Shown: positions 6,581-51,357 of the stretch, piece after piece | How the letters are laid out: each line of letters opens with the position of its first letter | Position numbering within the stretch: the stretch's first letter is position 1 | Source: Actinomucor elegans | Taxonomy: Eukaryota > Mucoromycota > Mucoromycetes > Mucorales > Mucoraceae | Length of the DNA: 64,000 bases | NCBI GenBank assembly: GCA_026027325.1 | Contig: JAMSLZ010000022.1 | Span: 1 to 64,000 of the forward strand | Reading direction: 5' to 3' | Made by a program: the position numbers and the translations under genes | The notes under the pieces: model-generated | Databases searched by the model: none | What the model was told of the DNA's origin: nothing | Seen by the model: only the letters and a program-made list of their open reading frames with translations

Positions 6581-7086
6581 TGTTGTAAAGGTGGTAGATA
6601 AAGATTTTGGAAGATAGAAATACTTTTAAAACTGTGGATAGTTTTTTATTAGAGATCAAGAATTGATTAACTGGTCAAAAGGTGATAAAACGCATCTCTT
6701 ATATACTTTTTCTCGGTCGGTACTTGATTCTAAATTCATATTACGATTTGCCAGGAACAAGGTTGGACTGCGTATAAAGAAGACCAGGGATAATAACCAA
6801 ATGAGCGGACCAAGATTAGCGGCGAGGAGTGTCGGGATCAATATATCCAAAGGTAATAGTATTGAATGTAATATTTGGTGTGAGAGATAGTATTTATCAA
6901 TTAGCGTCTACTTGCTCAGAGTGATATATAAATAAAGATATTTTAACATAATCAAATACAGTCATTTACATTCTGGTTCTTGGTAATAATGCTTTATACA
7001 CTTCTGCAGCTATATATAAGGATATCTATACGATTTTCTATCTGTACAGTATTCTCTTATTAATATAATTATGAGCGTTTACAACA
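6581..7086 (-). repeat. LTR (3' LTR of the - strand element)
   Basis: 506 bp, TGTTGT...ACAACA, matching 12241-12746 without a visible difference. Read on the - strand it lies downstream of the polyprotein and is preceded by a purine-rich stretch. The open frames inside it (6656-6890) occur in both LTRs and are not genes. Confidence 0.95.
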
Positions 7087-7102
7087 TTATCCTCCACCAG
7101 AA
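7087..7102 (-). other. Polypurine tract next to the 3' LTR
   Basis: On the - strand the bases just before the 3' LTR read TCTGGTGGAGGATAA, which is purine-rich and adjacent to the LTR as expected for the plus-strand DNA primer site of an LTR retrotransposon. Assignment rests on position and composition. Confidence 0.6.
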
Positions 7103-7269: not shown

Positions 7270-10200
7270 TTATTCTATCTTTCTTTTCTTGTTTGAACGT
7301 CTATTCAGTATTCTCTCTTCTCTACTCGTAGTGGCTGCAATATTTGCTCTTTTGTTTTTCGACATCTCGATCGCTACATTTGACATCTCATTCCCATTGC
7401 ATTTAGGAATCTTGGAAGTTCCAACTTTTTTGCGTCTGTTAGGTTCAGAGTTTTGAATTGACTGTTCGACTCTAGTTTGCTCTAAACGTCGTAATTCTCT
7501 TTGCTTATTCCAGTACCGTTGAATGATAGTTGGATCGGTGAAATCACTTGCTTTTTGCCAAGTATTTTCTTTCTCAGAATAACCTTTCCACTTAATCAAG
7601 TATTCTCGATGACCTTCTTCACCTCGATGATCACGGATACCTTCGACTTCGTAGTATTCTTCTTCGATACTAGACTCATCCAGGGTAACTACTTTCAATT
7701 CCGACGGTACATAGTTTCGGGATAATAATTCATTCTGTTCATCCTTTAGTTCATACGATCCACCAGTATTTCTTCGAACAACAGTGTAAGGTCCCTCATA
7801 AATCGGAGCTAACTTACTAGATCGATTCTGTAATCTGATCATGACATGCGTTCCAACTGGAATGTCGACAAGAACACTCTTTTGATTGAACTTTTTGTTA
7901 TATTCCTCATTTATCTTCTGAGTTCTTTCGAGGATGGCTGGGAATACGATCTTATCCATGTAATCTACGCGTTCTTCCAACTCTCGCATGGTCATAGACT
8001 CAATGGGTAGTTTGAACTTCTTCTCGTTCCCGTAGTCATCAGGTAAGTTGACTCTACGTGCAAACATCAAGGAGAAGGGAGAACTCATAGTTTTTGCTTT
8101 AATGTGTCGGTTCATGCAGAGCTGTATGATAGGAAGATAATACGCCCAACTATGACTGTCTGACTTCATCATTTTTCTTAACGTGTTAGTTGCGGTACGA
8201 ACTGCATTTTCCGCTGCTCCATTTGCTCGAGGATGATATGGCGTAGTGTATCTTCTATCAATTCCTAGGTTCTTCGAAATACTGTTCATCACAGCATTCT
8301 TGAACTCTAGACCATTATCAGACTGGCAAATACGTGGAACACCAAAATCACCATAGACTTTGACCAACTCTTTTGCAACAGTATCGGATTGTTTGTTCTT
8401 CAGAGGTCTGAGAATAACGAATTTCGAACAAATATCTGTTATAACCAACATGTAAACATATCCTTCTTCAGTTACGTCAAAAGGTCCAGCCAAGTCGATA
8501 GCAATATGATCAAATGGTCGGTTGGCTACAACATTAGATAATGGGTGATAACCTCTCTTACTGATGTTGTGCTTTTGACATTCAACACACGAACTAACAA
8601 TGTCTTTTGCTTCTGCGTAGATATTCGCCCAATGGAGACCTTGTGAATGTAAATCTCGCACAATTGCTTGCGATCCAAAGTGTCCAAATGCATGCGCTTC
8701 TTTCAACAGAGCATCTCTCTCTTCTTCAGGAGGAGTCATATAGTCAGTCAGCTCATCTTTTCTTTCAACTAGTTTAGTCGCGAGTACGTTAATCGTTTTA
8801 TCTCGGCTAAATCGCTTTTTTCTAATGATGGCTTTCTTTTTAGGGCTTCGTCTGATGATTTTGCTCGTAACACTATCCTCCACCAGTTTGTTTTCATCTT
8901 CTAAAGGTGAATACAAACGGCTCAGAATATCAGGCAATTTGTTCAATATACCGGGGATGTGCACTACATCAAAATCAAAATCCAGAAGAGTCTCGATCCA
9001 TCCAATTAACATGGGATTTGCGATCTTTTGCGTATGTAAGTATACTAGTGCCTTGTGATCTGTAAATACAGTGAACTTTTTGCCCCATATATACTTGCGA
9101 AACTTCAGTAATGCTAACACGACTGCATACAATTCTCTTTTAGTAGTGCTCCAACGGCGTTGTGAAGGTGACAAGGAGCTCGATACAAATCCTATGTAAA
9201 GATCTTGGCCGGCCTCATTCTTTTGAAACAACACTGCCGCGACACCATAAAGTGATGCGTCTGTAGCTACGTAAAACTGTTTTGACAAATCCGGATAATG
9301 CAGCATCATCTTCGACTGCAAAATCTCTTTGATAGTTTCAAAGCTCTTAGTGTGACGATCGGTCCACAGCTCTTCCACATTCTCTGCATTCACTAAACTG
9401 GTGAGTGGTTCTGCTACTCTGGAAATCATCGGAACGAATTCTCTCAGGTAATTGACCAAACCCATAAATTGCTGGATGTGTTTCTTATTTTTATTTGGAA
9501 GTGGCCACTTTGAAACATTGGTAAGTTTTGATTGATCCACACGAACTCCTGAAGCGTCCACTACAAATCCCAACATACGAACTGAATGTTGAAACCATGA
9601 ACACTTGGATTCTTTCAGGATTAAATTTGCGGAATTTAATCTGTCAATCACAAACTTTACATCTTTTGCATGCTGTTCGATACTTTCACTGGCAACAATA
9701 CAGTCATCCACGAAGTTCTGAACGCAATCAATACCTTCAAACAAGGTTGCCATGACCTTTTGAAATTGCGAGGTTAGCATTTTCACTCCAAAGCACGCTT
9801 TTTGAAAGGAAAAGCCATTGCCATTATAAGTAAACGATAACTTGTGTACATCCTCGGGTGCCACTTTGAATCGATGATATGCATTCGACAAATCCAAAGT
9901 TGTAAACACTTTTTTACCGGCCAAGTTATCAAAGATATCCTTAACCAAAGGTACGGGAAAATTGAATGTTGGAGGTAGAATTTGATTCAACGATCTCACA
10001 TCTAAACACGCTCTATGGCTCACAATCTCACCATCTTTGTTACGTTTAGGAACAAGCAGTAATGGACTGTTGAATGACGTGTTTACTCGGGATCGAATGA
10101 TTGTACCTGTTTCCAACCATTCTTTTATTTGCTTATCGAGAACTGGTCTTAATGCATAAGGGATGGGGTATTGACGTCTATACGCCGTTGCACCCTCTTT

Positions 10201-12195
10201 CGTAGGTAATCGAACAATGGATTCAGGCAAAGGACATGAAGATGTTATGGGTATGCTCTGACTAATCTCTAGTGATTCTTTAATTATACTCATGAACTCT
10301 GCTCTTTGCTCAGGCGTACCAGCAGGCGAATTGTCAGGTTCATGTTTTCTTTCACGTTCAATGTTCAAGTTTTCAAAAATAGCTTCATCACTCAAGGCAG
10401 CGTCAGAATGTGCATGATCATCTTTGATGCGAAAAGCCACTCCAGTTAATCCGATATTCATTTTGGGAAGAATATCTGTGCCAAGAAGAATATCAAACTC
10501 GAATCCGTCGTTAAAGTTCATTACTTCAAATGAGTGTTTGAACTTAATGCCATTTGCATACTTTATTTCCAAAGGATCGGTGATACCAATTCTCTTTGCA
10601 GTATTTTGATGAGACAAGAAATTATAAGAACCAGGTAATTTATGTACTTTATTTATATGAAGTTTATTCTTCAAAGAAGACAAACTAACAAAGCTACAAC
10701 TACTTCCTGTATCTACGCGTCCCAGGAGACGTTCAGACTCTACAATCAACGGTGTACATAAATTAAATGCGTCATTAGCCTTTAATTTGTCACTCTTCTT
10801 GTTCTCATTCAGGTACTTACATTGATAGCTCTGATTCTCAATCTCGGAGTCGGCCATCTCCAAGTCCTCTTGAACTTGCTGCTCAATTGACTTCTCACTC
10901 GAGGAAGCCGCAGGCATCACAGCCAAGACAGTACTGCTACTACTGCTTTCAGCAGCACCACAACGATGACCAGGACGCCATGGAGACACACCACAAGTCC
11001 AACACTCTTTACCCTTCGCCTTCTTCACAGAAGGAGGGCGTTCAGCTCTTCTCTTAGCGAGAAAACAATCCTTGGTGTCATGGGTCGCATTGTTACCATG
11101 ATGGATGCACGAAAAGGGTTTCGCCACCTTACTCGCCTTTTGCACCCGACGAGCTGCATTCTTGTGATGATGGTGATAGGGGGCCTTTTCTTTGCGTCGC
11201 TCAACAACAGGCGCACCAGGAAGAAGAGAAACAGCCTCATTATACGACGTATGGTCGTCACCAAGAATATCACGACCAATCTGTGCGATTTGATCGACAG
11301 TGTATTCAGCATTCTCACCAGAAGATCCAGCCTTCACTGAATTCATTGCAACTCTGATCAGCGTCTGAACAGGTTTAGTCAGCGAGGCCAAAAAACGATC
11401 AGCTACTCTAGGACACTCTCTAGGTAGGCCTGCATCAAACATTGCTGTTTGAAAACGCTTAGCATAGTCGCCCACCGACTCATTGTTTTCCATTACCATG
11501 GTAAACACAAGGTCAGTATATCTTCTCAACACAAGGGAAGAACCGTGCTGCTTCTTAAACTCTCTACGAGCATCTGCCCATAGGGTACAACCTCTACTCA
11601 GCTCATCTTTCACCCATGCTTTATCGCCATGGGGAAGGCAAAGGGGTAAGAAGTTCTTCCACACCTCATCAATGGACATGGAAGAAGACTCAACTACATC
11701 CTCAAATTCTCTCAAAAAATGCTCAACAGACTCGAAGGCTTCGTAACCTGGAAAAGGTTTGACAGCCGAGGTCAAGAGTTGGAACTTGGGCAAGTCGCGA
11801 CGATTCAATGTCAAACCAGTAGGTGGCTTAACACGATCAACCTCACCGATCAATGAACTGCACTCTTGGATCTCACGGAGCATCCTCTTGGAGCGTTCAA
11901 GGGCCAACAAGGCTTCATCAGCCGCTACGTCATCTCTGACTACACGAGCACGACTAAACGCTTGAAGGTATCGGGTAATATCTGCACGGAGCCCGGCGAT
12001 ATTTGTGTCAATCAGTTGTGGGTCAGTCATGTCAGCAACAGCATGCTCAGCCGACTCAGACAACAAAGAACTAGCACCAGGAGACTTGATAAACTCATCA
12101 AGGTTGCTTGACAAGGTCGATTCATCAAACATGGGGGTGTCAGGGTTAACACCACAGTTGGCAGAAGAAGAACCAGAAACGTTGTTGGAAGCCAT
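7270..12195 (-). CDS. Gag-Pol polyprotein with C-terminal chromodomain (1641 aa)
   Basis: This single frame encodes all retrotransposon functions. In order: a Gag region; a zinc knuckle CWTCGVSPWRPGHRC near residue 400; an aspartic protease with DTGSS near 495; reverse transcriptase with the catalytic FVDD near 830; RNase H (TDASLYG near 980, FTDHKAL); an integrase with an H2C2 zinc region near 1165-1195 and the catalytic triad in DHIAIDLAGP (~1233), QSDNGLEF (~1293) and NGAAENAVRT (~1329); and a chromodomain (YLIKWKGYSEKENTW) near 1500-1545. Integrase after RNase H defines Ty3/gypsy, and the chromodomain defines a chromovirus, which as known for the group may target histone marks. All catalytic residues are present and there is no stop, so the element may be active. 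Start is ATG 45 nt inside the 5' LTR. Confidence 0.95.
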   Translation of the reverse strand: MASNNVSGSSSANCGVNPDTPMFDESTLSSNLDEFIKSPGASSLLSESAEHAVADMTDPQLIDTNIAGLRADITRYLQAFSRARVVRDDVAADEALLALERSKRMLREIQECSSLIGEVDRVKPPTGLTLNRRDLPKFQLLTSAVKPFPGYEAFESVEHFLREFEDVVESSSMSIDEVWKNFLPLCLPHGDKAWVKDELSRGCTLWADARREFKKQHGSSLVLRRYTDLVFTMVMENNESVGDYAKRFQTAMFDAGLPRECPRVADRFLASLTKPVQTLIRVAMNSVKAGSSGENAEYTVDQIAQIGRDILGDDHTSYNEAVSLLPGAPVVERRKEKAPYHHHHKNAARRVQKASKVAKPFSCIHHGNNATHDTKDCFLAKRRAERPPSVKKAKGKECWTCGVSPWRPGHRCGAAESSSSSTVLAVMPAASSSEKSIEQQVQEDLEMADSEIENQSYQCKYLNENKKSDKLKANDAFNLCTPLIVESERLLGRVDTGSSCSFVSLSSLKNKLHINKVHKLPGSYNFLSHQNTAKRIGITDPLEIKYANGIKFKHSFEVMNFNDGFEFDILLGTDILPKMNIGLTGVAFRIKDDHAHSDAALSDEAIFENLNIERERKHEPDNSPAGTPEQRAEFMSIIKESLEISQSIPITSSCPLPESIVRLPTKEGATAYRRQYPIPYALRPVLDKQIKEWLETGTIIRSRVNTSFNSPLLLVPKRNKDGEIVSHRACLDVRSLNQILPPTFNFPVPLVKDIFDNLAGKKVFTTLDLSNAYHRFKVAPEDVHKLSFTYNGNGFSFQKACFGVKMLTSQFQKVMATLFEGIDCVQNFVDDCIVASESIEQHAKDVKFVIDRLNSANLILKESKCSWFQHSVRMLGFVVDASGVRVDQSKLTNVSKWPLPNKNKKHIQQFMGLVNYLREFVPMISRVAEPLTSLVNAENVEELWTDRHTKSFETIKEILQSKMMLHYPDLSKQFYVATDASLYGVAAVLFQKNEAGQDLYIGFVSSSLSPSQRRWSTTKRELYAVVLALLKFRKYIWGKKFTVFTDHKALVYLHTQKIANPMLIGWIETLLDFDFDVVHIPGILNKLPDILSRLYSPLEDENKLVEDSVTSKIIRRSPKKKAIIRKKRFSRDKTINVLATKLVERKDELTDYMTPPEEERDALLKEAHAFGHFGSQAIVRDLHSQGLHWANIYAEAKDIVSSCVECQKHNISKRGYHPLSNVVANRPFDHIAIDLAGPFDVTEEGYVYMLVITDICSKFVILRPLKNKQSDTVAKELVKVYGDFGVPRICQSDNGLEFKNAVMNSISKNLGIDRRYTTPYHPRANGAAENAVRTATNTLRKMMKSDSHSWAYYLPIIQLCMNRHIKAKTMSSPFSLMFARRVNLPDDYGNEKKFKLPIESMTMRELEERVDYMDKIVFPAILERTQKINEEYNKKFNQKSVLVDIPVGTHVMIRLQNRSSKLAPIYEGPYTVVRRNTGGSYELKDEQNELLSRNYVPSELKVVTLDESSIEEEYYEVEGIRDHRGEEGHREYLIKWKGYSEKENTWQKASDFTDPTIIQRYWNKQRELRRLEQTRVEQSIQNSEPNRRKKVGTSKIPKCNGNEMSNVAIEMSKNKRANIAATTSREERILNRRSNKKRKIE

Positions 12196-12240
12196 ATCGA
12201 TAAAAGTAAGGAAAATAGGACAGTAATTAAAAGTAAAAAA

Positions 12241-12746
12241 TGTTGTAAAGGTGGTAGATAAAGATTTTGGAAGATAGAAATACTTTTAAAACTGTGGATA
12301 GTTTTTTATTAGAGATCAAGAATTGATTAACTGGTCAAAAGGTGATAAAACGCATCTCTTATATACTTTTTCTCGGTCGGTACTTGATTCTAAATTCATA
12401 TTACGATTTGCCAGGAACAAGGTTGGACTGCGTATAAAGAAGACCAGGGATAATAACCAAATGAGCGGACCAAGATTAGCGGCGAGGAGTGTCGGGATCA
12501 ATATATCCAAAGGTAATAGTATTGAATGTAATATTTGGTGTGAGAGATAGTATTTATCAATTAGCGTCTACTTGCTCAGAGTGATATATAAATAAAGATA
12601 TTTTAACATAATCAAATACAGTCATTTACATTCTGGTTCTTGGTAATAATGCTTTATACACTTCTGCAGCTATATATAAGGATATCTATACGATTTTCTA
12701 TCTGTACAGTATTCTCTTATTAATATAATTATGAGCGTTTACAACA
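12241..12746 (-). repeat. LTR (5' LTR of the - strand element)
   Basis: 506 bp copy of 6581-7086. In the - strand direction it is followed by TTTTTTACTTTTAATTACTG (12221-12240), which does not resemble the 3' end of a common tRNA, so no primer-binding site can be named. Some chromoviruses prime on their own transcript, but I could not find a matching complement in the LTR. Confidence 0.95.
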
Positions 12747-13744
12747 TTGGTGATCTCTACACCACCAACAACCCAAATACCATCAACTCGGTGGCCTCGA
12801 TTATATTTTCGTTTACCAAATTTGGATTCGTCAATTTGGACGATAATGGGATTTCTATTATCGTCCAGACCTCCTAAGGAGTTAATTTAATGTAAGTAAC
12901 GTAAATTTATCTCGCTTCCTTAGCTGGTACACTTACCAATTTTAAGATCTTCTTCCGTTTGATTACCAGATAAAAAGTCCTCTTGCATTATCTGGTAAAA
13001 ATCATCTATTACGCCTCTAATGGTGTCAGGATGGATACCAGTAGATAGAGTAATTGTATTACGAGGAGCCTTACAGCATAGCCAGTAATACAAAACAATA
13101 AACTGATCACGGAGAGTGCTTTTACGTTCAGCAAAGAACGATTGAAAAAGAACCGAACATCTACTTTTGTTGCAGCATTTGCTCTTGTGACAACGCCAAA
13201 CATAGCCGCGATCGCTATTAAAGGTTAGTTTCATGGTGATACCATTAGGACACTTTATTCCTGTGTGAGTATAGTCATAAAGTATTTTTTGTTCCATGAG
13301 ATAACTAAATAAAATGAATTCAGTTAATTATACTTTATGCTAGGTGAATGTATATACGTACCGCACTGTACTATTGTCGTCTTTTAACTGATTTCCAATA
13401 AGTTCAAAGATAGTGATCATTTTAGTGGTAGGTTTTCTAGACCAAAGCTCTATTTCACCAAGCTGACTAAGAGGCAAAGCCGTTGGGAGAGAAACGCCAC
13501 TAAATGTACTTGGTTCAACTTGCTGAGGTTGAAGACTATCCAAATAAGCCAAATAAGCATCACCATCATCCTCCTCGTCGCCAGAGGATCTGGTTGAAGT
13601 CACAGTATTCTGCTCCAGACTTAGGTCATCCAATAATTGAGGACTAGTCGAGCGAACTTCAATAGAAGAAGTAGGAATAGGAGTTGAGAGAGAACCAGAA
13701 GCGTTGGTAGAACTGGAATCAAAAGCATGGAATGAGGAGAACAT
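12747..13744 (-). pseudogene. Merlin (IS1016/ISXO2-like) transposase, spliced, 3' part lost
   Basis: Three exons can be joined on the - strand: 13744-13362, 13305-12937 (less the intron 13306-13361) and 12873-12747, with GT-AG introns and consistent phase. The N-terminus is Ser/Thr/Asp-rich and not diagnostic. Exon 2 has the zinc-ribbon-like part with CHKSKCCNKSRCSVLFQSFF and the YYWLC segment. Exon 3 has the Merlin signature VQIDESKFGKRKYNRGH followed by WVVGGVEIT, which holds the first catalytic Asp. The frame is cut at 12746 by the LTR of the chromovirus and its C-terminus, with the remaining catalytic residues, is not found on the other side. It belongs to the DDE transposases that move DNA by cut and paste. 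It is therefore a dead, truncated copy. Confidence 0.85.
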
Positions 13745-16252: not shown

Positions 16253-17108
16253 TTATTTGCTGTCGTTGGATGTCGAATCTGTTGACTGTTGAGAGGTGTA
16301 ACTTCGTTGATTGGAGGAATGAGAACCTCGACCTCTTCCTCCGAATTGAAAAGGTTGTTGACCGCGTGACCAGTTTCCACGCCAAAATCCACCTCTTGAG
16401 TTCCCTTTTCCTCGAGGTCCATAGTTGAAACTTCTGTTGTTGTGATACTGTCCTCTACCCAACGATGCTGCATCCCTGATGACTTTGTCTTCAAACCGAG
16501 CTCTTTGAAGTTGTTCAACAAAGTCTCTATCGAAAGAATTCGTCTTTCCATCATCCTCTGTTGAGTATTCCAGGTATTTAACACTTGTTGGTAGTTTAAG
16601 CGTTTTGATTGCCACATCTTTTGTTTCTTTTTCTTGGAATTTTACTGAACCAAATCCAAACACTGCAAGTCGTTGAGCTTGTTCGATTGAGTTAATGAAA
16701 ATTTCTCTGTCCTTTGCGGAGGTAAATTCTGCTTTATTTTGTAGGTATTGAAGTTGTTCGTAGAACTCGGCGCTGGCTCTAGCTTGCAGTCGTGTTGTTT
16801 CTGTGATCTTATAATGGTACTGATGAGCTGATAGGCATCTACCTTCCAGTTTTTGAGATCTGGGATGAATTCTTTGTTGAGCTATTCAGCTTTTGTCTAG
16901 GAATCATGATTGTAACGTTGGATAGTTCTTTTGTATTGTTTAAATTTGTCCTTAAGTTGTGCTGGAGATGCATTGTCCAAGGTTTCGCTAATCGCCAAAG
17001 GGAGTTCTGTTCCGTTGACTTGAAGTTCTTTTTCACGAGCTCGTTGTTCTTCGAGTTCTCTAAATAATTCCTCAACTTCTGCTCGTGTGAGGGTGGTTTG
17101 TTGGTTAC
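16253..17108 (-). pseudogene. DIRS-like Gag, main part, interrupted by CACTA insertion
   Basis: The - strand encodes a Gag-like protein that starts at ATG 24526 (MEHINLNNGQNSN, 24526-24489), jumps over the CACTA transposon and continues here in the same frame as QQTTLTRAEVEELFRELEE. Downstream are two in-frame TAG codons (about 16895 and 16880), then LNKEFIPDLKNWKVDAYQ, a frame change, then FYEQLQYLQNKAEFTSAKD, QRLAVFGFGSVKFQEK and finally a Gly/Arg-rich tail (GRGQYHNNRSFNYGPRGKG; FGGRGRGSHSSNQRS). The Gly/Arg-rich tail is characteristic of DIRS Gag proteins of this fungal group. Stops and the frameshift show that it is dead independently of the insertion. Assignment to DIRS is by resemblance. 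Confidence 0.72.
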
Positions 17109-17128
17109 CACTATGGCGAAAATATTGT
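17109..17128 (+). repeat. CACTA left terminal inverted repeat
   Basis: CACTATGGCGAAAATATTGT, preceded by the duplicated TTAC. Pairs perfectly with 24469-24488. Confidence 0.97.
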
Positions 17129-17859
17129 GTGCTACCCATAATATTATGTGGTAAAACGACGATTTTATTATCATTTACCTACTAATACTATAGATTTACC
17201 TACTAATAATAATCTGCGAACCAATGAAATTAGAGCAATTATTTTCTATGGCTGCGCAATTAACAGTGCTTTGCTCATTTATTAGTGGTTACTCCTAATA
17301 TTAGTGGAAAGCAGACAATAATGTTATGGGTTTAGTCAATATTATAACATAAATTGACAATAAGAAAGAAAAGCCTGAACTCCATTTTATTTGCAAACAA
17401 TTTTTATGTATTCTTGTCTTTTGCCGATGAAAGCCAAATCTTGCAAACTTCTTATAAATGAGTACATGAAATTCTGATGCTTGTACGCAACAACATAATC
17501 CTCGTTTATTTTATTTACTAAAATGAACTCTGCTTTTCGTTTCAACGATCTTTTATGTAAATTCCTAGAAACGTTTAATTTCAACGTTTGTCAAAAATAA
17601 TGTTGAACAATTGTCTTTCAAATGCGTTTATTATTCGTTGAAAAGTCTCTTATACAGGTCAGGTTGCAAAAAATTCTCTTGTAAATTACTCTTTTGGAAA
17701 CAAGAACGAATCGCTAGTTCCATTTAATAAGCTGAGCACTTTCATTGCCGTGATTTAGCCTTTGGCTAATAGCTGTGTATTTAAAATGCTGAATGACATT
17801 AAGAATGAGCTGCCATTAAGTGTCTAATTTACTCAATTTTATGTTTAGTAAAATTATAG

Positions 17860-17985
17860 AATAAAGAAAGAAAGAAAGAAAAAAAGAAAATACATTGCGT
17901 TAAAAAAAAAAGAAATACATTGCGTAAAAAAAAAGAAATATATTGCGTAAAAAAAGAGATAAATTATTGTGTAAAAAAAAAAATA
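17860..17985. repeat. A-rich minisatellite inside the CACTA element
   Basis: Four imperfect units of about 22-25 bp share A-run + GAAATACATTGCGTAAAA, after a short (GAAA)n run. It lies in the left non-coding arm of the transposon. Role unknown. Confidence 0.8.
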
Positions 17986-18724
17986 GGTCAAGTAGCGATT
18001 ATTAATTGCCAGTAATCTTAGTCATTATTGCTAGGCGGTTATTTAACTAGATGATTTATTGTCAAAATCATATATCCACTTCTCAAACTACAAAAAAACG
18101 CGTTCGTTTTTGGACTTTCGAGTAATTGATGATTATGATAGAATTCTTAATGACGATCGAAAGCTTCAAAAACATGCACGTTTTTTTAGGTGCTAGAAAA
18201 CTACAATCGATGAACATTTTTGCTGTCTGTTGGAAAATTAATCCGCATTGCTTGATAATAAACTAATTTTACTATAAAGATAAACAAGAGCATTAATCAT
18301 ATTTTACATTTGGTTTTAAAGATTAACTGGAGCAACTAAATAGTCAATTAACATTATTGAATGATGAATATAGAACTGTATAACTTGGGTTATCCTGGTT
18401 CTATATTTCTGATATTATGAAATAATTTCTTAAACATCAGGGAAATGGGTTAAATTTTTGATTAAGAAATGTTTTTACATTCTGTTGCAAGATTGCTAAT
18501 ACCTTTCTCTCGAATTAATAACATGATATATAAAAACGAGTTAAATTATCTATAGTTTATATCTACTACAGAAAGTGTAAATACCTATTTTACTTTTGCT
18601 ATATTATGATGAAGTCCTTTTGGAGGGAAGCTTTATATTATTTTCGGTGGTTTAAATACATAATCAATTCAGAGAACAATTTTATTTCAAAATAAAACGC
18701 TTTTTGCTCTTGTCTTCATGCTAT

Positions 18725-21697
18725 TTACAAACGACTTAATATGCCAGCATTTTGCTCTAGATCTTGTTTAAATATATGATGAGAGATGATCTTGAACTCT
18801 TTCTCATTAGATTCACTTGAACGCACAAGACCTACACTGGCAACAATATCTTCAAACCGACAGACAGCGTAACTGTGTGCACCGCTACTGTGCAGCTCAA
18901 CCAAAGCAATAGTCTTGTCATATTTGGTAGTTGCATTCTTTTTCGCTAAATCAACCAAAGCCAAATACTGTGGTCTACCATTGAATGAATGCTCGAAAAA
19001 GAAAACGATAGAACCAATGAACCAGCTTTCACGAATGGAATTATTTCGACTATTAACAAAGGTTGGTTAATCAAAGAGGTTTTTGTTCTTGAGCTAATTA
19101 CTTACTTCAAGTAGCTGGCAGTGATCATCACGTAATTGTTTCCTCGACGATATTCATTTATATGGCTTTTATACATGGTAGACGTATATACATTGCCATA
19201 TGCCCAGGCACGACCAGCGATGGAAATACTATTCAACGAATCAATTTCAGCAATATTTACACCATTTGCTTCAGTACGGCGATAGTAATGCAATAGCGCC
19301 TTCAAAAAAGTTTGAGTGGAGACACCAAAGGGAAGAGTATCCACTGAAATATTACTAAAGGGAGCCCATAATTGTGGATCACTAGCATCACCAGAAGGGT
19401 TATTCCTGAAAGTGGATTCGCTGTATTTTCGAGGAGTGATCAGGTCAAGCTCAGTATGAACATCCCAAGTCTGGCTGTTTATATGATTACGCGTTATGAG
19501 TCTTTCCAAGATATTACCAGCGTTTGCGCCAGCATCAACCTTTGACTTGATGAGCTTTTTGTATTTTCCGATGCTTCTTTCCATTGATCGGGCGGAATAT
19601 GCTCTCAACACACCTTGTTGTTTGATCATATAGACTATATGCGAAAGGTAGTGTTGAACAGGCTTGAATACACCGGAATGAATACGCTTTGCCTTGATTT
19701 CTGCCAACAAAAATTCTTGCCATTCTTTGATATATCTTTGGAAAGTATGTAAGTAAACTAGATTTATGAGTACAAAAAAAATATATTTACCTTTCCATCA
19801 GAATAAGGTCTTCAATAGAAAGTTCCCATTTAAGAGCCAATGCGACAGCTTTTGTCAGATGAATCAATGGTTTCTTAGCGGATTCTTGAATCAATTCAGG
19901 AACGAACAAGGTGGGAATCATATATAAGAAAATATCAATCCAGTCAACAGCACGTTTGCCACCACTCTTGATAATTGGATCTTCCCATTTGGATGAAAAG
20001 GATGTCGGTACAGTGGCTCTAGAAGCTTCAACAAGTTTACCAATTTTGATGAGCGATAATTTTGGAATATAGAAAGTATACGGCCATTCATCAGCAGACT
20101 TCAATCGGGCATCACTCAATTCATCTTCATTGGGCTTATATCGAGTTTTTCTTGCTGCATTGTACTCTTTACCCATGTCGACTGTCAGCATATTGAATAC
20201 GTGTTGAGCGATACCTTGTCCGAGAAGATGCATTTCGTCTAAACCAAAAAAAGTAGCGCCAGTAAAACTGGGAAGTATTGCAAATGGTGTTGCAGACTTG
20301 ATACTGTAGCTCTATGAGGTAAAAAGAAAAAGAAATGTTAAAAACTTGTAAAGATTAATGCTGATTATAGTACTTACATTCGCTGCATCTGGGGAAATGA
20401 AATCGTTTCTGCTTCTGATCTCATTGTCGATCGTTAAAAAACAATTATGATAATCATGACGTTCAGCTTGGACACGACAAATACGGCAACCAAACGTAGC
20501 CATATGACCAATATGATTTGCAAGCTCAGCTGCAGCAGGAAGATCACCAGTAGCCATCACCAAGTTGACTTTAGCTTGACAAACAATTACACCATCCTTT
20601 TGTACAAGCATGCCTTTGGTAGACAGAGCATGAAACTCATCAATAATAGGCTTTAAAAAGGTATGCATGTACTTTGGGTAGTTTGGACCTGGCAAGATCG
20701 CCAATTGAAGCATGTATTCGTCTTGGTAGCGGTATTCTGGGGGAATGTTCATATTCAAGAGATGGATGATTGTTAACTTGTCCCCTTTATGATTCTTGCT
20801 AGTACAGAAACCATCGACAAAAAGAACCATTGCGACATCATCTTCACCGGAAAACAGAATGCTATTATCCTTAAAGTACTTGTATGCTGCACCATCAAAG
20901 TAATCTTTATATTCACCGTCAGTTGATTTATAGTTGTAGCGGTATTTCATCAAGTCTCTTGTCTTTGCATTCGCAAGCATTTGAGCGACTTGTTCACCAA
21001 TAGGAAGCATCTTCATAGAGCGACGAGGTTTACCATGATCATCAAAGCGATTTTCTTTACAAGCAGGGTTTTTACATTGAATAGTCTCTATATCTTCCTT
21101 TTCAAACAGCATGCAACCATTGACGCAGACATCATGAAAATGACATTGAATATTGGTTTTTGCTTTAAGAGTACGATCCAAGGTATCAGGGAACATGAGA
21201 GTGGATGGTAGGTAACCTATATATAATGGGAATAAAAGCTGATAAGTACTTTTTTTTTAACTCTATTTGAATAGATACATACCCAATCCATCGGTTTTAC
21301 GGCTCTCTTCATTGTTTTTGATTATGGTACGCATTAGATAGACAAGTTCTCTTTGAGCCTCTCGAGGAATACCATACGTGTCGCAAATATCTCTCAATTG
21401 GATGCTATTTAATTCCGTATTGGTGAAAAGGTTTTGATCCGAGGATTTGACGTTGTAAGCAATTGGAGTAGGCTCTATTTCAAACAAGGTATATTGTTAA
21501 ATTAAAAGCTTTAGTAATATATCTGTTAACTCACCTTGGACAGGAATGCTAGCTTCTTGCGTTTGGACGACCCTTTGTTTTCTATGATCACGATTATGGC
21601 TATAGTGATTACTCCTAGCTTTAACAGTTTTGAATGGCCTCAAACAAGTAGCGCAAGTATATTTATATGGTGTAGCAGAAGAGGAAACTTTGCCCAT
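18725..21697 (-). CDS. CACTA transposase, tnp2-like (889 aa, six exons)
   Basis: Exons on the - strand: 21697-21535, 21474-21283, 21216-20378, 20311-19791, 19735-19106 and 19049-18725, joined at GT-AG introns of 56-86 nt; the total of 2670 nt keeps frame to the stop. The N-terminus has a C2H2-like zinc finger (CATCLRPF...HYSH). Exon 3 holds the transposase core as known for the tnp2/Transposase_21 family: paired cysteines (CHFHDVCVNGC, CKNPACKENRF), VDGFCTSKN (~253), LPGPNYPK (~292), GDLPAAAEL (~342) and the metal-binding FGCRICRVQ. Later exons carry GLDEMHLLGQG and LRAYSARSMER. It should catalyse excision and insertion of the element by recognising its ends and subterminal repeats. No stop or frameshift is present. 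Confidence 0.9.
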
Positions 21698-22102
21698 TTA
21701 AAGATAAGTAAAAACAAGTAAATATATCGAATTAATGAATAGCGGTTTTGTTGTTTAGAAAAAGCAGGTCTTAAATACGTTTGCTTGGTCTACAATTGAC
21801 AGAGTTCTCAATGGTAATTCATTGTTTTAGGCTGTTGAATCCTTTGAACTAATCAGCTTTTCATATTACTCAGCCTTCCAGATTATTCAGATATCGAATA
21901 CATTTTAATGGATCCTTATGATTTCTAATCAAGCTAATTCCTTTCCAAGTCAGTCATACCTGTCAGTAAGCTTACTTTCCAGAAAGCTCTTTGGACATTA
22001 GTAAGGATTACTAATGGATAAATGGTAAAGTACGCTTATAAAACAGTTAAATAGCTCAAATCATTCAATCACTTTTCTTTATAATATATTTACTTTATAG
22101 CT
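21698..22102. promoter_or_regulatory. Divergent promoter region of the two CACTA genes
   Basis: Only 405 bp separate the two divergent start codons, so both genes must be driven from here. The region is AT-rich and has repeated CAGTAAG / TTACTTT-like words. No single TATA box is compelling. Confidence 0.5.
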
Positions 22103-23185
22103 ATGTCAAACAACAACAACAATAATTGGAGCGTCTACTTTGAGAAGATTGAACAAGAAATCTTAATCAACCGTCGTTTAATTCAAGATTTGATCCAAAT
22201 ATTAGCACCTCTATTTCCTCGAGAAGCTTCGAGGGTTTCATCTAACGAAGAAATTGAACAAGCACTTGACGATGGTACAATCATATCTGAAGCATGTTAC
22301 TACATTCAGTTTTATTAACCTCTTAGCTTGTCATATATAGCTGAACGAGAAGCAATTGCAAATGCTTTGAATCCTAATTTACGTAGTAAACGGTCAATCC
22401 CAAAAGTGCTAGAAGAAGCAAAAGTGCGTTATCAACAAAAGGCAACCAAGACAAATGTCACCCCTTCTGCACCATTAAGGTTATATGCCCTCTTGAAACA
22501 CCTCAAGTATATAAAAGGCCAACAAAATGAACTGACCGATGATGATGTTCAACCGCAATACAATACGTTGAAATACTTGGCAAGAGATGTCTTGAAAGAC
22601 ATGGAAAGGGCAAATATAAATATTGTTGGTAAAACTTGGAGTGAAATTGGCGAAGAGGATACCAGCATTCAAGAACGTTATGCTTTGCTTTTAGAGAAAC
22701 GTGCTTTAGATGTGGGCTTGCATCTGCATCTCTGTGTAGAGATGTGGGCTGCCAAGTTACTTTTATCTGAAGCACTCAAAAACAAGAAGACTGTACGTAC
22801 CAGAAGTAATTCTGCTGAAGAAGGTGAAAGTCAACAAAATCAAGAATCTGTTGAAGACAATGAGATTGAATCGTTCTTCAGGTTAGATGCTTTTTTATTT
22901 CTGTTTTTATATCTTTATTAATATGCTTGTTATGCAAATAGTGTGGATAATCAGCATATCCTTGTTGATCGTCTAGCTACTTCTGTTGCTCCAGTTGGTC
23001 TTGCATCTCCAATTGCTAGCTTGTTGGATCTACATTCTGCTCGCTCATCAACGAAAAGAAAAGCCATTACGGTTCAACCTGACGTTGGTGAAGATGAGGA
23101 GGCTGGATCTGACAATCGTTCCAAAGAAGCGGATTCCAATAAGCGTAAACCACGCTCTAAGAAAAATACAAAAAAAACGAAATAA
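22103..23185 (+). CDS. Accessory protein of the CACTA element (325 aa, three exons)
   Basis: Exons 22103-22295, 22341-22881 and 22942-23185 join with GT-AG introns of 45 and 60 nt; the sum of 978 nt stays in frame. The protein starts MSNNNNNNWSVYFEKIEQ, has a predicted helical middle (LYALLKHLKYIKGQQNE; VLKDMERANINIVGKTWSEI), an acidic stretch and a C-terminus rich in Lys/Arg (NKRKPRSKKNTKKTK) that could be a nuclear-localisation or DNA-binding tail. I recognise no domain. Plant CACTA elements encode a second protein that binds subterminal repeats (TnpA); by position this gene could serve such a role, but that is inference. It lies inside the TIRs, divergent from the transposase. Confidence 0.75.
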
Positions 23186-24468
23186 ATATAGACGTTTTTT
23201 TATTGGTTTAAGTAGCTGACGTAGCATTTTTCTGCGGCTTTTCAGTATTAAGAAAAACTTTTTTACACCAATCTTGAGTTTCTTTCTTTTTTTTCGTTTG
23301 CTAAATTGGCACATTAAACGTAAGGTTTCTTGACATTTGTCACTCTTATTGCGCACAACACTTTAACTGAAGCTTCTGTATAATAGGAATTAACCTCAAT
23401 GTCAGCTTGTAATTGTGTTTTTTTTTCCAAGCTTTCGAATATTTCCCTCGTTCTTAATGTCGTAATTATCTATAAATACGTCGTCATTCATACTGCTTAT
23501 ATTCTTATACTGACTTGTATTCTTAAATACTTATACCACTTCAGTAATACTTATAGCCAGTAATGCCATATAGCTTTTGAACCTTTACTATTAGTTTTAA
23601 AGCTAATAACCATTAAGTAAGTGCAATGATTACTAATCCATTAATTTCTTTGTATATTAATCTAATACTGTTATAATAGATTTAGTTGTGTATATATACA
23701 AGACGAAGACTATTAAAACTGTAGCCCAGTGAATTATAATTGATTGTGTCTGATATAGTGTTGGTAAGTCTGTAGCAATAGCGAGTTTCATTCAAGAATC
23801 TAATCATTACTTACTTTAGGAAAAGATGATTAAAATATGCTATTATACAAGCGTGGGCCATTCTTCTAAAGGTTAGTTCAAATATACTCTTAAAATATTG
23901 TTTCATCAACGATAACTGACATTATTTATACAGTTATTTGCTTAATTCATTTACCTGTTACTTGCCAGTGGGACATAAATTCTTTTATACTTGTATGACA
24001 ATAAGGTAAGTTAAATACTGTTCGTGTGTGATAGAAAGCTGGTTATTGTATATTCAGCTATTGAAGGCTAGTGTGTATTAGAGTAATATCTGTTGAAGTT
24101 ATATATTATATAAATAAAAAAAATAGCAATTAAATTATTATCTGAATAACCAAAATGACTATAATATTATTAGTAGTGTATTGTGAATATATGATAGAAA
24201 ACTAATAATAATATTGATTATAAATCATCAATATGGAGGGATTAATCCATACTATTATTGACTGGAAACCACTACTATTATACAATTTACCCATAATAAT
24301 ATTGAAGGAAAACCCTTAATATTATAGTATTTACCCATAATATTATCGAATAAGAGTCACTAATATTATCAACCGCCGAAAAAACACTGCCTAGAAATTG
24401 ACAATAATTATTAGCAGAACTATAGTCGATTTTACCCCTAATATTATCAACTTTTGGGCAAAAAACCG
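23186..24468. other. Right non-coding arm of CACTA element with subterminal repeats
   Basis: No gene. Between 24285 and 24450 the words ACCCATAATAATATTG, ACCCATAATATTATCG, CACTAATATTATCAAC and ACCCCTAATATTATCAAC recur at 30-70 bp spacing; related words in the left arm (for example TACCCATAATATTATG at 17134) suggest transposase-binding arrays at both ends. Confidence 0.65.
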
Positions 24469-24488
24469 ACAATATTTTCGCCATAGTG
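24469..24488 (-). repeat. CACTA right terminal inverted repeat
   Basis: Reverse complement of the left TIR, followed by the duplicated TTAC. Confidence 0.97.
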
Positions 24489-24700
24489 TTACTATTCTGC
24501 CCATTGTTTAAGTTGATATGTTCCATAGTTAATCCCACGATGCGCGGTTTTGAAAGATATAGGGAAGAAAGGGAAAATTATTATTATTATTACAAAAGGA
24601 AAATAAAGCGTGGCTCTGAGAGCATCTATCACATTAGAGGACGGAGTGGAGCCAACTGAGGTTGTTTTAGGAACAACAAACAATTGATTTTGATAGATAA
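24489..24700 (-). pseudogene. 5' end of the DIRS-like element: Gag start and terminal repeat
   Basis: The - strand ATG at 24526 opens the Gag frame (MEHINLNNGQNSN) that is cut by the CACTA insertion and continues at 17108. Right of it, 24551-24640 repeats 15949-16036 in the same orientation (GAAAGATATAGGGAAGAAA, then AAAATAAAGCGTGGCTCTGA), and 24630-24690 resembles 15768-15830. The terminal repeat therefore flanks the whole DIRS-like element on both sides. Confidence 0.7.
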
Positions 24701-28141: not shown

Positions 28142-28495
28142 ATGAAGTTCACTGCCCTTCTTATTACTCTTTCTGCCATCTCCAGTGTATACGGATCTTC
28201 TGTCAAGTTATACAAGAGCAAAAACTACAAGGATAAGTGTGGTGAAGTCAGTGGGGGTTGGGTCTCTGGTCATGAATACCACAACGTTCCATCTGCATGT
28301 AGAGGCAAAGTCCAAAGTTTCCAAGTTTCTGTCAGTGCCATTGATCACGGTGTTCGCTTATGGTCTGCTGTCAAAGGCAAGGGAGATGTCCATTGCGGTG
28401 GCAAAGAAGCTGGTTATACAACCGAAGACTGGTCAAGACCCAGTATTTCTTCTACTTGGAATAAAAAGATCAATTGTATCGAATTTATTGGTTAA
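28142..28495 (+). CDS. Small secreted four-cysteine protein (117 aa)
   Basis: The first 18 residues (MKFTALLITLSAISSVYG) form a clear signal peptide with cleavage after Tyr-Gly, so the product is probably secreted. The mature ~99 residues contain exactly four cysteines (DKCGE, SACRG, VHCGG, INCIE), enough for two disulfides, and many Gly, Ser and aromatic residues. The start VKLYKSKNYKDKCGE and the repeated aromatic/Gly pattern recall beta/gamma-crystallin-type folds seen in small secreted microbial proteins, but this is only resemblance. No intron. The reading frame has good coding character, in contrast to the shadow frame. Its place at the edge of the subtelomere fits fast-evolving secreted proteins. 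Confidence 0.85.
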   Translation: MKFTALLITLSAISSVYGSSVKLYKSKNYKDKCGEVSGGWVSGHEYHNVPSACRGKVQSFQVSVSAIDHGVRLWSAVKGKGDVHCGGKEAGYTTEDWSRPSISSTWNKKINCIEFIG

Positions 28496-47052: not shown

Positions 47053-48393
47053 TTAATAAGAGTAGCACCAGTAGTTATTCATAGGGGATAGCTTTTGCCC
47101 GTCCAACAAGATCAGCTTCTTTGAATACATATACCTTGGGTCTACATCACGTCTGCTATAATAGGTTCTTCGTCCATAACTCTGTAAATTCCACTGCTGC
47201 ACTTGTAGTGGATATTTTTTCGGCGCAAACGGACTAATTTCTATTACCTTCACGTTGGTCTTTTGCGCAATTTGCTGCAACACTTGCGGTAAGCAGGTCA
47301 TCTCCATACTGAACGGTGTACGTGCTAAATTCAGATACACAACAGTGGTTGCGGTTGATAAAAATTGAATCAAAGCCTCCAAACTTACAAAACGACAGTA
47401 AGCCAGCGATAGATATTTGAGTTTTGGCATGACCATTTGACTGAGTATAATGTCATCTAAATTAGTGTGGCCACCCATATCAAGCGATTGTAAATGAGGC
47501 ATTGGTTGTCGTAGTACTTGGAAAATACAATCATGACAGAACCGTGATCCACCAATACCATTAAAGTCCATATTTAAATTCAGCTCATGCAGTTGAGATT
47601 GCTGTGTAAGAAAGGGTATCAAGGGAGAGCAGCAAGTGAGTGAATGGCATCCTTGCAAATTCAAATGTGTCAGCGTTCGAACATTAGGCAGATGCAGAAA
47701 GAGCTGACTAGTTATTTGCGTATGAGCCAAATCCAAGCGTGTAAGCTGGTTTCCATATTGTGTTAATTTATCAAAGAAGGGTATAAAGAAATGCTCTTGA
47801 GAGAGCGCCATGCACATATAGAATGAAATGTTGTTCAACCTCTGGGGAATAGACCAATCTTCTTCTATTTTCACTGCTGGAGCTGCTTTGATCATACCTT
47901 TTTTATGTTGGTGTGTAAAAAAATCTGTCATGGCAGAGGTAAAGGTTCGATCACAAAACCCAGTAAAATCCACTGTTTGCAATCGATTATCACGGTTGAA
48001 TATGGACCGAATCACCAAAGGAGAGGCAAAGACGTGTATCATTTCTTCACCTACTAGTAATGCTTGGAGTTGCTGACAACCCATAATCAGCGATGCCAAC
48101 TGGTCTGGTACCATCACAGATTTGGCTTTTTCTTCAGTCCAGCGAGAGCCACGCGTAGTATAGCTAGAGAAATCAAGACGCTGTACATAATCTGCCAACG
48201 CATGATGCTGCTCTAGTACTGTATGTTTAAAAGCTAAATAATGACGGGGTCCTGTAATCATAATGTGACGATAGAGAAGATGAATAGTAGCAGCATAACA
48301 AGATTGGCTGACTTGGCACAGGGATGCTCTGTCCTTGGCTTCAGAACAATAGCTACCGATTAATTCAATAAGTTCGCTTGAAAGGTTTTTCAT
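47053..48393 (-). CDS. F-box/leucine-rich-repeat-like protein (446 aa)
   Basis: The ATG at 48393 begins MKNLSSELIELIGSYCSEAK, followed by DRASLCQVSQSCYAATIHLL: an F-box, with the usual L.E....I shape, in the first 45 residues. The rest has irregular leucine-rich repeats, for example LTRLDLAHTQITSQLFLHLP, VRTLTHLNLQGCHSLTCCSP, LHELNLNMDF, LQSLDMGGHTNLDDIILSQM and LKYLSLAYCRFVSLEALIQF. Such proteins join Skp1-Cullin ubiquitin ligases through the F-box and bind a substrate with the LRR face; the substrate is unknown. The frame is open 88 codons further upstream, but that part is encoded by a 28-nt poly(T) (a Lys run) and is surely leader. No intron. Confidence 0.88.
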   Translation of the reverse strand: MKNLSSELIELIGSYCSEAKDRASLCQVSQSCYAATIHLLYRHIMITGPRHYLAFKHTVLEQHHALADYVQRLDFSSYTTRGSRWTEEKAKSVMVPDQLASLIMGCQQLQALLVGEEMIHVFASPLVIRSIFNRDNRLQTVDFTGFCDRTFTSAMTDFFTHQHKKGMIKAAPAVKIEEDWSIPQRLNNISFYMCMALSQEHFFIPFFDKLTQYGNQLTRLDLAHTQITSQLFLHLPNVRTLTHLNLQGCHSLTCCSPLIPFLTQQSQLHELNLNMDFNGIGGSRFCHDCIFQVLRQPMPHLQSLDMGGHTNLDDIILSQMVMPKLKYLSLAYCRFVSLEALIQFLSTATTVVYLNLARTPFSMEMTCLPQVLQQIAQKTNVKVIEISPFAPKKYPLQVQQWNLQSYGRRTYYSRRDVDPRYMYSKKLILLDGQKLSPMNNYWCYSY

Positions 48394-48423
48394 GATGGGG
48401 TTTACAAAAGAAAACAAAAAAAT

Positions 48424-48426
<3 letters not shown>

Positions 48427-48454
<28 letters not shown>
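48427..48454. repeat. Poly(T) tract, 28 nt, in the F-box gene leader
   Basis: Lies about 35 nt upstream of the F-box start codon, so it is poly(A) on the coding strand. Could be a nucleosome-free promoter element. Confidence 0.9.
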
Positions 48455-51357
48455 CCCGGAAGAACCAGGTCATGCAATAGGGTTGTGCAAAATTCACACG
48501 ATAAGAATTCTTGATAGTCGGATTTTGATTGGGTACGTTCATCAAAACCCATCAAAAAGGTCGTACGACGAGAAAAGGATATATATGATAGGTTAATCAA
48601 AGTTCCATGGTTGCTTATCGCATATATATTTACCTCGCATGGCGCCAGCCCAGTCATTCTCTTTCATTTAAAAAGTTTAAGTATTCGGTGTTGGATTGAT
48701 TGATTCATTTTGAAAAGATGAGTAAGATTATGTCATAGGATAACAGCTGCTGGCAATTATTAATCAGTACATGTATGCAGTTTGCAATCAGTCACTAAAA
48801 CCATAGTCTATGTGTAGTACTTTATCTAAGGCACAGTGGTTCATTCAAAACTAGCACTATTTAGACGCAATATTGTACTGAGATCCTTTAACATCATGCT
48901 AATTTCCGGGATTGCTGATACAGTTTTTATTAGACTGAGGATTGGCAATGAATGCTTGAGGTTCTTGATCGAAATCTGTGAAAATAATAATAAGAAAGAC
49001 CTAGTTTAAAAGCGAAAAAAGAGTTGACATCGTATCAACTATACTATTTTTAATACCAACATGTTTACGACACGGCTTGCAAAACGAATAGCCCAAAAAC
49101 ATTTATTCGATTGTTCAGGGTTGTGAAATAAGCGTCTTCGCTACAAATATTTACCGAAAGCGAATGTCGAAGCAGAACTGGATGATAGATTGATCAAGCC
49201 ACGTTGCATGAGGTAGAAATTCTTTATCTCACCTAAACCAAAGGAGATAACAAAAATATGATTAGCTAATCACTATATGCTGGAGGCGTTCTTTGAGTTT
49301 CTTGTTGATGATTAAAAAAAGAATAGAACTGCAAGCAAAACTATATTCATCGTAATATGTAGTTTGTTAACGAACGGTACTCGGTTTTCAATATTATAGA
49401 AGCTACCGTTTCTATTGCGGTTACCCTTGAGCAAAAAAACAGTTCGTCTTGGGCTATGGACTTTTCTTCATCAAATATTCTTTTGCTAAGCTTCTTTAAT
49501 GAAACATATGCAGATATTCCTTTTTTCTCAGTGTGCATAATTTCAGCCACTCTGCATGTTGAACGTCTATTCACAAAGAAATAATTATGAAAAACATCAG
49601 AGTTACATAATAAGGCTATTCAGAAAGAAAGTACTATTATAAGTATCTGAGGCTTCTACTTGTAGGGCTTCTACATGATAATGTACTCTATTATGCATGA
49701 CTAATAATATTTGCATATTTGTACAATCTTGCACCGTATTAGTTTGGTTGCTTAACCCGCCTTGGTAATAAGAAAGAAATTCAAATATACAGCCATGAAT
49801 CAAAGGCGAATCATTACTACTATTGCAACTACAATACCATTATCTCTTTTTATTAGTCAGTGACGTTGTAGCAATACAAGAAACCTTCTGAAAATCAAAG
49901 TTATCGGACCTACTTTTTAATAGACAAATAATATTTCTATATAAACAATGCGTTATAGAGCATTATGTGATATACAATGGCGTATCTAACGGTATAAAGA
50001 TCATTGAGTATTTATATAGATTCATAAAGCTAGTTTTGAAAAAAAAAATAGCGAATCTTGGATAAATTTTATCATTACGTTATAAAATTATCAAGCAGGA
50101 AAAAAAAAGTATTCTCATATACTTCTATTCATCTTATCTATGTTGCCTATAAAATAAACGCTCATAGTCAGGTAGAAAATGATTAAAATAATGATGTTGT
50201 TTGAAATAGCGCAAAAGTGAACGAATAAAGCGTAAAGGTCCATGTAGTACTCGTTATGGATGGACTACCGCGTGTATTGCAGCCTTTATTAAATAGCAAG
50301 TTTTGGCAGCTAATGAAGCTTATCACGCTCCCCAAACATCTATATAAATCATAATTAGTTGTGCCCCAAATCTTCTTTTTGCTGTATTTAATCATGCTAC
50401 CTGGATCAAAAAAAAAAAAAAAAAAAAAAAAAAGTGTATATATATGTTATTCTGGTTGGATTTAAATATAGATCGGCTCGCAGTGCTTTAACAATAAAGA
50501 AAAGAAAATCATTAAAACTCCTTATTTTTTTTTGTCTCTCTGTTTTGATGCAACTCTCTCTCTTAATATGAAAGCGCCAAATAATACGATATTTATTAGT
50601 AAAGTTCTTACAACATTTGATTCTACATCTTGTGATATGATTTTATATGAGCTAGTTGTACTATTATAGATTTAAAAGAAATTTTCTAGATAACAGTTAC
50701 TTCTAGTAGCGGCCTTTAAAAAGGCTTTACAATAAAAATAATTGGATTGCGGTAGATCAATATCCTAATTTGAACTCCACGAAACGCGTTCTTAAATTGA
50801 GGGTATATCGTGCCTGTTGAATATACCCGAAAATCTACCGAGATTTTTTGTATTCCCACACGGAATATCACGTTAGAACATTGTGATGATGTGGTAAACA
50901 CTGTAGATGCTATCTTTTTTAAGCTAGATTTTCTAGTTTGAGGCGCCGCGATCTTGATCTTAGACCACACTGACAGTGATTATGCAACTATTGAATAAGC
51001 AGTAATTCCAGGGAAAGCATTTTTGAAATTGATTCTTGTCAATTGTTATTACTATTCTATATATAAAAAGCGTACTACCAAACAAAAAGTAAGGAGATTC
51101 GCCAACAATCAACAAAAGCAAAGAAAAGCGTGCTTTTTTACAAGTCCGCGAGCTTTGCCTTTTGTATATTTCCTTTTGGTTAATCAACGACTCTCTTTCT
51201 CCTATAGTTATTTGTTTCAATTAGCTCAAGGGGAATGTATACCATTTAAAAAAAGTAATTACTAAATAGTACTAAAGAAAAAATACAAGGTATGTTGGTT
51301 GGTTCTGATATCTATTAAATGTTAAAGCTTGTTTAGTAGGTTGCCTGACTATATACC
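48455..51357. other. Long intergenic region, no gene seen
   Basis: Nearly 3 kb of AT-rich DNA. Frames such as 49347-49574 (-), 50716-50970 (-) and 51023-51265 (+) have no motif and no splice partners I trust. It contains an A26 tract at 50408-50433. Upstream promoters of the F-box and DYRK genes must lie in it. Confidence 0.5.

Follow-up and report, generated by a model that had tools for sequence, protein, structure and literature searches.

A DNA transposon of the CACTA type, 7,380 bp long, occupies positions 17109–24488 of the window, the 64 kb at the start of contig C15 in Actinomucor elegans (genome 36.5 Mb, 27 contigs). The first-pass annotation, made from the letters alone, had described it as an apparently intact element lying inside a DIRS-like gag and flanked by a 4-bp duplication, and the present analysis supports that description. 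Across the genome the element belongs to a family with invariant ends in which the duplicated target is of mixed length, 4 or 3 bp, a conclusion that is well supported by the junction sequences. The locus is organized as follows.

16253–17104, minus strand: remainder of the interrupted DIRS-like gag, with in-frame stops and then a frame change
17105–17108, unstranded: left copy of the duplicated target, TTAC (17 empty paralogues of unchanged length, four of these aligned)
17109–24488: CACTA-type DNA transposon, 7,380 bp
17109–17128, plus strand: left terminal inverted repeat, CACTATGGCGAAAATATTGT
17134–17331: left subterminal region with ACCCATAATATTA repeats on both strands (four with at most two mismatches)
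17858–17980: A-rich tandem repeat around TACATTGCGTAAAAAA (limits set by eye)
18725–21697, minus strand: transposase gene, 889 amino acids, Transposase_21 (tnp2); six exons, 21697–21535, 21474–21283, 21216–20378, 20311–19791, 19735–19106 and 19049–18725
22103–23185, plus strand: second gene, 325 amino acids, divergent from the transposase gene; three exons, 22103–22295, 22341–22881 and 22942–23185
24162–24446: right subterminal region with ACCCATAATATTA repeats on both strands (six with at most two mismatches)
24469–24488, minus strand: right terminal inverted repeat, same as the left
24489–24492, unstranded: right copy of the duplicated target, TTAC
24493–24526, minus strand: first codons of the interrupted gag (start codon 24526–24524)

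Ends, insertion site and gene content

The two 20-bp termini are identical and TTAC stands on both flanks, as previously noted; the termini do not occur again in the window at up to three mismatches, and a chance match as the origin of the ends is rejected, 0 such pairs being expected in 100 shuffles. Inside them, motifs resembling ACCCATAATATTA (at most two mismatches) cluster near the termini, with four within 280 bases on the left, six within 500 bases on the right and 0 in the interior; shuffled ends give means of 0.05 and 0.17. The figure is descriptive, the motif having been chosen by eye once the ends had been inspected. Both the clustered subterminal repeats and the CACTA core within the inverted repeats are features of EnSpm/CACTA elements. 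One copy elsewhere in the genome (C22:681048-688880) exceeds the window copy by about 450 bp, and part of it (L118) holds many units of the A-rich tandem repeat.

Removal of the element and one TTAC had been proposed to restore a Gag frame, N-S-N-Q-Q, and the two flanks agree on this: the right one carries MEHINLNNGQNS (24526–24491, minus strand) and the left one QQTTLTRAEVEELFRELEEQ (from 17103 downwards), the gag reading on the other side of the element from MEHINLNNGQNS being QQTTLTRAEVEELFREL. About 70 codons past the site the gag contains two in-frame stops, after which the frame is lost, so that the element sits in a decayed gag copy; a paralogue, L092, retains a 310-amino acid gag open reading frame (ORF) together with a Phage_integrase match just below cut-off (E 1.3e-5, 25.4 bits against 27.1). 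A 26-base sequence, AAAATAAAGCGTGGCTCTGAGAGCAT, lies on either side of the transposon, at 16003 and 24600, and its two occurrences are probably pieces of DIRS-like repeats. DIRS elements have been reported in all analysed Mucoromycotina genomes (PMC3783388).

Under the predicted introns, five of which, all GT..AG, interrupt the transposase gene, both genes are open and the lengths of 889 and 325 amino acids given by the first-pass annotation are reproduced. The transposase matches Transposase_21/tnp2 (E 1.7e-8, 34.4 bits, cut-off 28.6), the sole Pfam family at E≤1, and its named relatives occur in Mucor, Pilobolus, Absidia and Phycomyces. Its proposed catalytic Asp-Asp-Glu (DDE) residues are D253, D343 and E624, with C362/C365 and H600/H604 between the second D and the E; the corresponding motifs are FVDGF (251), MATGDLP (339), CRIC (362), QHYLSH (599) and ARSMER (620). 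As assigned by motif, this arrangement appears to match the DDE, C(2)C and H(3-4)H pattern of the CACTA-Mirage-Chapaev-Transib (CMCT) clade, to which C(2)C and H(3-4)H between the second D and the E are common (PMC12730594), and it is mostly kept among the homologues that cover it. Another feature of the clade, a catalytic fold like that of RAG1/Transib, is indicated by way of a homologue, P0001, the catalytic region of which has a predicted fold matching RAG1/Transib at about 10% identity; a sequence search with the transposase for relatives of solved structure gave none (best E 0.18). For the second gene, no Pfam match above cut-off was obtained with two relatives and an exon reading (P0009, which is not the spliced 325-residue form), one relative (P0011) having weak matches, three in Pfam below cut-off and one in NCBIfam, and the structure model is too poor for use (mean predicted local distance difference test score 46.5).

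Copies in the genome and the length of the duplication

A genome-wide search for the ends, which the first-pass annotation had put forward as a check, listed 56 left and 55 right ends. The left end plus 14 further bases (a 34-base pattern) occurs with 0 mismatches in every case, whereas the right end plus 18 further bases (38 bases) is exact in 54 cases and has one mismatch in the remaining one; three more right ends fall outside the 38-base pattern but keep its first 15 bases, one of them (L112) with a shorter T-run behind the repeat. Pairing by position and orientation yielded 52 two-ended copies, of which 45 measure 7,360–7,401 bp and seven 6,600 to 12,236 bp, and ten partnerless ends. With 52 such copies the element is not rare here, although the first-pass annotation had called a complete element of this kind rare. 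EnSpm is reported from all sequenced Mucorales of one survey, at one up to a hundred copies (PMC7928374). When the genome was searched with the transposase, only this family appeared among the matches listed (51 of 518 candidates scored), so that more distant relatives may be present as well.

Junctions were read for 51 of the 52 two-ended copies (left out: C3:121280-131114), partnerless ends being excluded from the duplication counts. All 51 pairs start with CACTATGG and finish with CCATAGTG, the CA..TG ends of the CMCT clade, and keep both 20-bp termini, so that copies with different ends, the finding that had been named in advance as refuting the annotation, did not appear; since the 20-bp ends were the search key, this invariance is partly by construction. 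The longest exact duplication is 4 bp in 25 copies and 3 bp in 15, against chance expectations from mispaired flanks of 0.30 and 1.36, respectively; in the others it is 10 bp (one copy, a T-run, ambiguous), 2 bp (one), 1 bp (two) or absent (seven). The 40 of 51 copies with 3 or 4 bp thus lie within the 2- to 5-bp range of the CMCT clade, and the fixed 3-bp duplication of EnSpm/CACTA is not observed. What the first-pass annotation had said, that a 4-bp duplication departs from the usual 3 bp, holds for the window copy; as a fixed length for the family it does not, 3 bp being common as well.

A duplication of 4 bp is backed by empty paralogous sites in eight cases and one of 3 bp in two. At the window site, 17 of 22 empty paralogue rows span the insertion point without length change at 78–81% identity, and the four that were aligned are ungapped, which gives a 4-bp duplication; 15 of the 17 have equal scores and are therefore probably close copies of one another. 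At seven other sites, 4 bp follows from comparison with copies found either in the window or among the flanks of other insertions. The 3-bp cases could in principle be sequencing or alignment errors beside the ends of an element whose duplication is fixed at 4 bp, and one-base losses, several of them in A- or T-runs, are indeed the main difference between copies. The neighbouring base required for such a loss is present in only 3 of the 15 cases, however, and in the other 12 the adjacent sequence rules out a one-base loss next to an end; among these 12, L041/042 has ten empty paralogues at 98–99% identity (three aligned) that cover the site over 157 of 157 bases under a 3-bp model, and even L043/044, one of the three, is ungapped under that model against the four copies aligned, one empty paralogue at 85% identity and three more distant ones making up the four. 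A fixed 4-bp duplication is accordingly very improbable and largely refuted. Also rejected was the possibility that the element is longer, that its ends are unequal and that it always duplicates 3 bp, because the base preceding CACTA is not constant among copies. The target of L041/042 is also abutted by another sequence, at C12:41655-41900 (L107), which ends in ..CAAAGTG (inwards CACTTTG..) and may be a third CACT-ended element in that position.

The bases around the duplication show a weak, roughly symmetrical target preference, with C immediately before it in 14 of 40 copies (p 0.016) and G immediately after it in 20 of 40 (p 9e-6). The excess of G is present in both length classes, in 8 of 15 copies with 3 bp and 12 of 25 with 4 bp, which speaks against an origin of the two lengths from two transposases, the element's own and that of a sibling family, each producing one length. 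The sibling exists: its ends, CACTATGGCGAAAAAATTGG, share 18 of 20 bases with those of the main family and occur 35 times in the genome at up to one mismatch, the pattern having been derived from a diverged end seen at one locus. Sibling pairs, joined by position (for example C1:7931-14691 and C16:144892-151654), are about 3.9 to 11 kb long, several near 6,763 bp, and the 12 that were read lean to 4 bp (seven, against one with 3 bp, one with 2 bp and three with none, two of these three having the same flanks and looking like one duplicated locus). It could be a second source of transposase, which weighs against a single enzyme; yet it has a 3-bp case of its own, and its 7:1 ratio is not clearly different from 25:15 (Fisher p 0.24). 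We consider two transposases unlikely and judge it likely, from the junctions, that one transposase makes both lengths; going by the sibling's 7:1, a duplication that is mostly 4 bp and now and then 3 bp may characterize the lineage. Diverged ends were also sought by a looser end pattern, which gave only the main family among the matches listed, by the left 180 bases, for which the 40 candidates scored, of 56, were all of the main family, and by a modified end pattern, which had no match in the genome.

Age of the copies and exchange between them

Twenty-one copies, that of the window included, were fully read, a set outside which six longer-than-usual copies lie. Nineteen of them have 0 substitutions relative to the majority base, each over about 7.4 kb and together over roughly 140 kb, and the other two have four (L020) and two (L025); L020, close to the end of its contig, differs at many single bases, possibly through error. 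Such identity suggests that the burst of transposition was probably very recent. Both genes are open under predicted splicing in 15 of the 21, the transposase being broken by loss of one or two bases in four and the second gene in L020 and L025. As far as predicted introns show, the other finding that the first-pass annotation had named as refuting it, stops in the transposase under measured splicing, has therefore not arisen.

Assembly polishing and gene conversion weigh against so recent a date as possible confounders, and the copies might instead be old, kept or made identical by these processes, and no longer recently active. In ten of the 51 copies there is no 3- or 4-bp duplication, and the flanks of at least one look exchanged, so that copies may recombine. 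Nevertheless, 19 of 21 copies are free of substitutions although their flanks differ, and the duplication has stayed exact in 40 of 51, which old insertions are unlikely to have retained; great age is an explanation to which we give little credence.

Among the ten copies without a 3- or 4-bp duplication, L018 is flanked by sequences that are adjacent in a paralogue and is therefore probably a normal insertion with altered bases, whereas in L017 the right flank is not the continuation of the left. The left flank of L071/072 (C22:1932359) ends in ATTA, continued as ATTAGCGTCTACTTGC in the window's empty copy, and ATTAGCGTCT.. comes after the partnerless right end L111 (C3:8063). The simplest reading of these flanks is an exchange between two copies of the element, although a repeated sequence hit twice, independently, at the same base may also account for them; the arrangement suggests that contigs have been rearranged by way of the element. 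When copies of this class were compared as potential partners in exchange, eleven pairings of 3 or 4 bases emerged, most of them within chance by estimate, and a continuous empty copy supports only that of L071/072 with L111.

The window also holds a retrotransposon-like element with 508-bp repeats (6581–7088 and 12241–12748) that are 100% identical, so that this element, too, appears recent; its ORF (7270–12285, minus strand, 1,671 amino acids) has reverse transcriptase and integrase motifs by eye, and one CACTA copy (L013) is inserted in a paralogue of it. A 117-amino acid ORF at 28142–28495 (plus strand) has a signal-peptide-like start and resembles, by eye, small beta/gamma-crystallin proteins. 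A further protein of the window (47053–48657) shows 96% identity to a JGI protein and, among named records, about 60% to proteins of Mucor lusitanicus and Parasitella parasitica; together with the relatives of the transposase, this points to a Mucoraceae-like host.

Affiliation and proposed mechanism

Plant CACTA elements carry subterminal repeats and a second, TnpA-type gene, and the window element likewise has subterminal repeats and a second gene. Transib and RAG duplicate 5 bp; the family resembles Transib, RAG1 and ProtoRAG in the predicted catalytic fold of P0001 and in its C(2)C and H(3-4)H motifs, and differs from Transib and RAG1 in its 3- or 4-bp duplications and in the low identity of the fold match. 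AcademX elements possess an XPG nuclease, which is not among the Pfam matches of the window transposase or of the second-gene relatives.

With EnSpm/CACTA, including CNIRT6, a mobile element of Cryptococcus neoformans with CACTG ends and a 3-bp duplication (PMC12810828), the family shares CAC..GTG ends and a DDE transposase of the same lineage; unlike CNIRT6 and the fungal EnSpm elements, for which 3-bp duplications are described within a clade range of 2–5 bp (PMC12730594), it has 4 bp more often than 3. Other departures from 3 bp have been reported, namely a 2-bp duplication in CNEST (PMC12810828) and a 2-bp repeat in 7 of 14 copies of SmTRC1 (PMC1636069). Mixed lengths are found in IS481EU, where several occur in one family, and in AcademX, with 3 or 4 bp (PMC10045372); their transposases place both in other superfamilies. 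No report of mixed 3- and 4-bp duplications in one CACTA family was found in the titles and abstracts of the literature matches listed. Term searches of two papers on RNA interference in Mucor (PMC11943222, PMC7377519) returned no mention of CACTA or EnSpm, and one of a paper on drug-resistant Mucor isolates (PMC12863538) no mention of CACTA.

The animal Chapaev superfamily, with CAC..GTG ends and 3- to 4-bp duplications (PMC4079192), is similar in both respects, and the element might be assigned to it, or to Plavaka, rather than to EnSpm/CACTA. Chapaev3, however, duplicates TWA (PMC4079192), whereas the duplicated bases vary here; Plavaka has TGT..ACA or CATCA..TGATG ends and 2- or 3-bp duplications (PMC12730594); and the window transposase passes the cut-off of Transposase_21/tnp2 and of no other family. 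Either assignment is improbable. As the fixed 3-bp duplication is missing, the element is filed under the CMCT clade and called nearest to EnSpm/CACTA.

We therefore regard it as quite probable that the element is a complete, recently mobile cut-and-paste transposon of the CMCT clade that works as proposed here. The transposase, with a RAG1/Transib-like RNase H core, would bind the 20-bp ends, with help from the subterminal repeat clusters and perhaps from the second protein, acting as TnpA does; the transposase would excise the element and attach its 3′ ends to the two strands of the target at a spacing of 3 or 4 bp, mostly 4, and repair of the staggered joints would leave the 3- or 4-bp duplication. 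That a single EnSpm-like transposase with a RAG1/Transib-type core joins the ends at either stagger from the same active complex is the reading we favour, with reasonable though lesser confidence. Present activity, excision and the role of the second gene are what we infer from the copies and their genes.

In summary, the element is of a known type, and what sets it apart from the known clade is the mixed 4- and 3-bp duplication. Duplication length serves as a hallmark for sorting DNA transposons, and a family in which it is mixed questions such use; if the proposed reading is true, it would be a loosely set property of the CMCT strand-transfer complex and not a superfamily marker. The near-identical copies are a natural data set on the joint spacing of a RAG-like transposase, and the choice of stagger would be directly measurable in a young family whose identical copies number in the dozens and for which paralogous empty sites exist. 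The many identical, open copies further suggest that this early-diverging fungus harbours a CACTA-type element that is mobile at present, with possible uses as a genetic tool and as a reporter of silencing.

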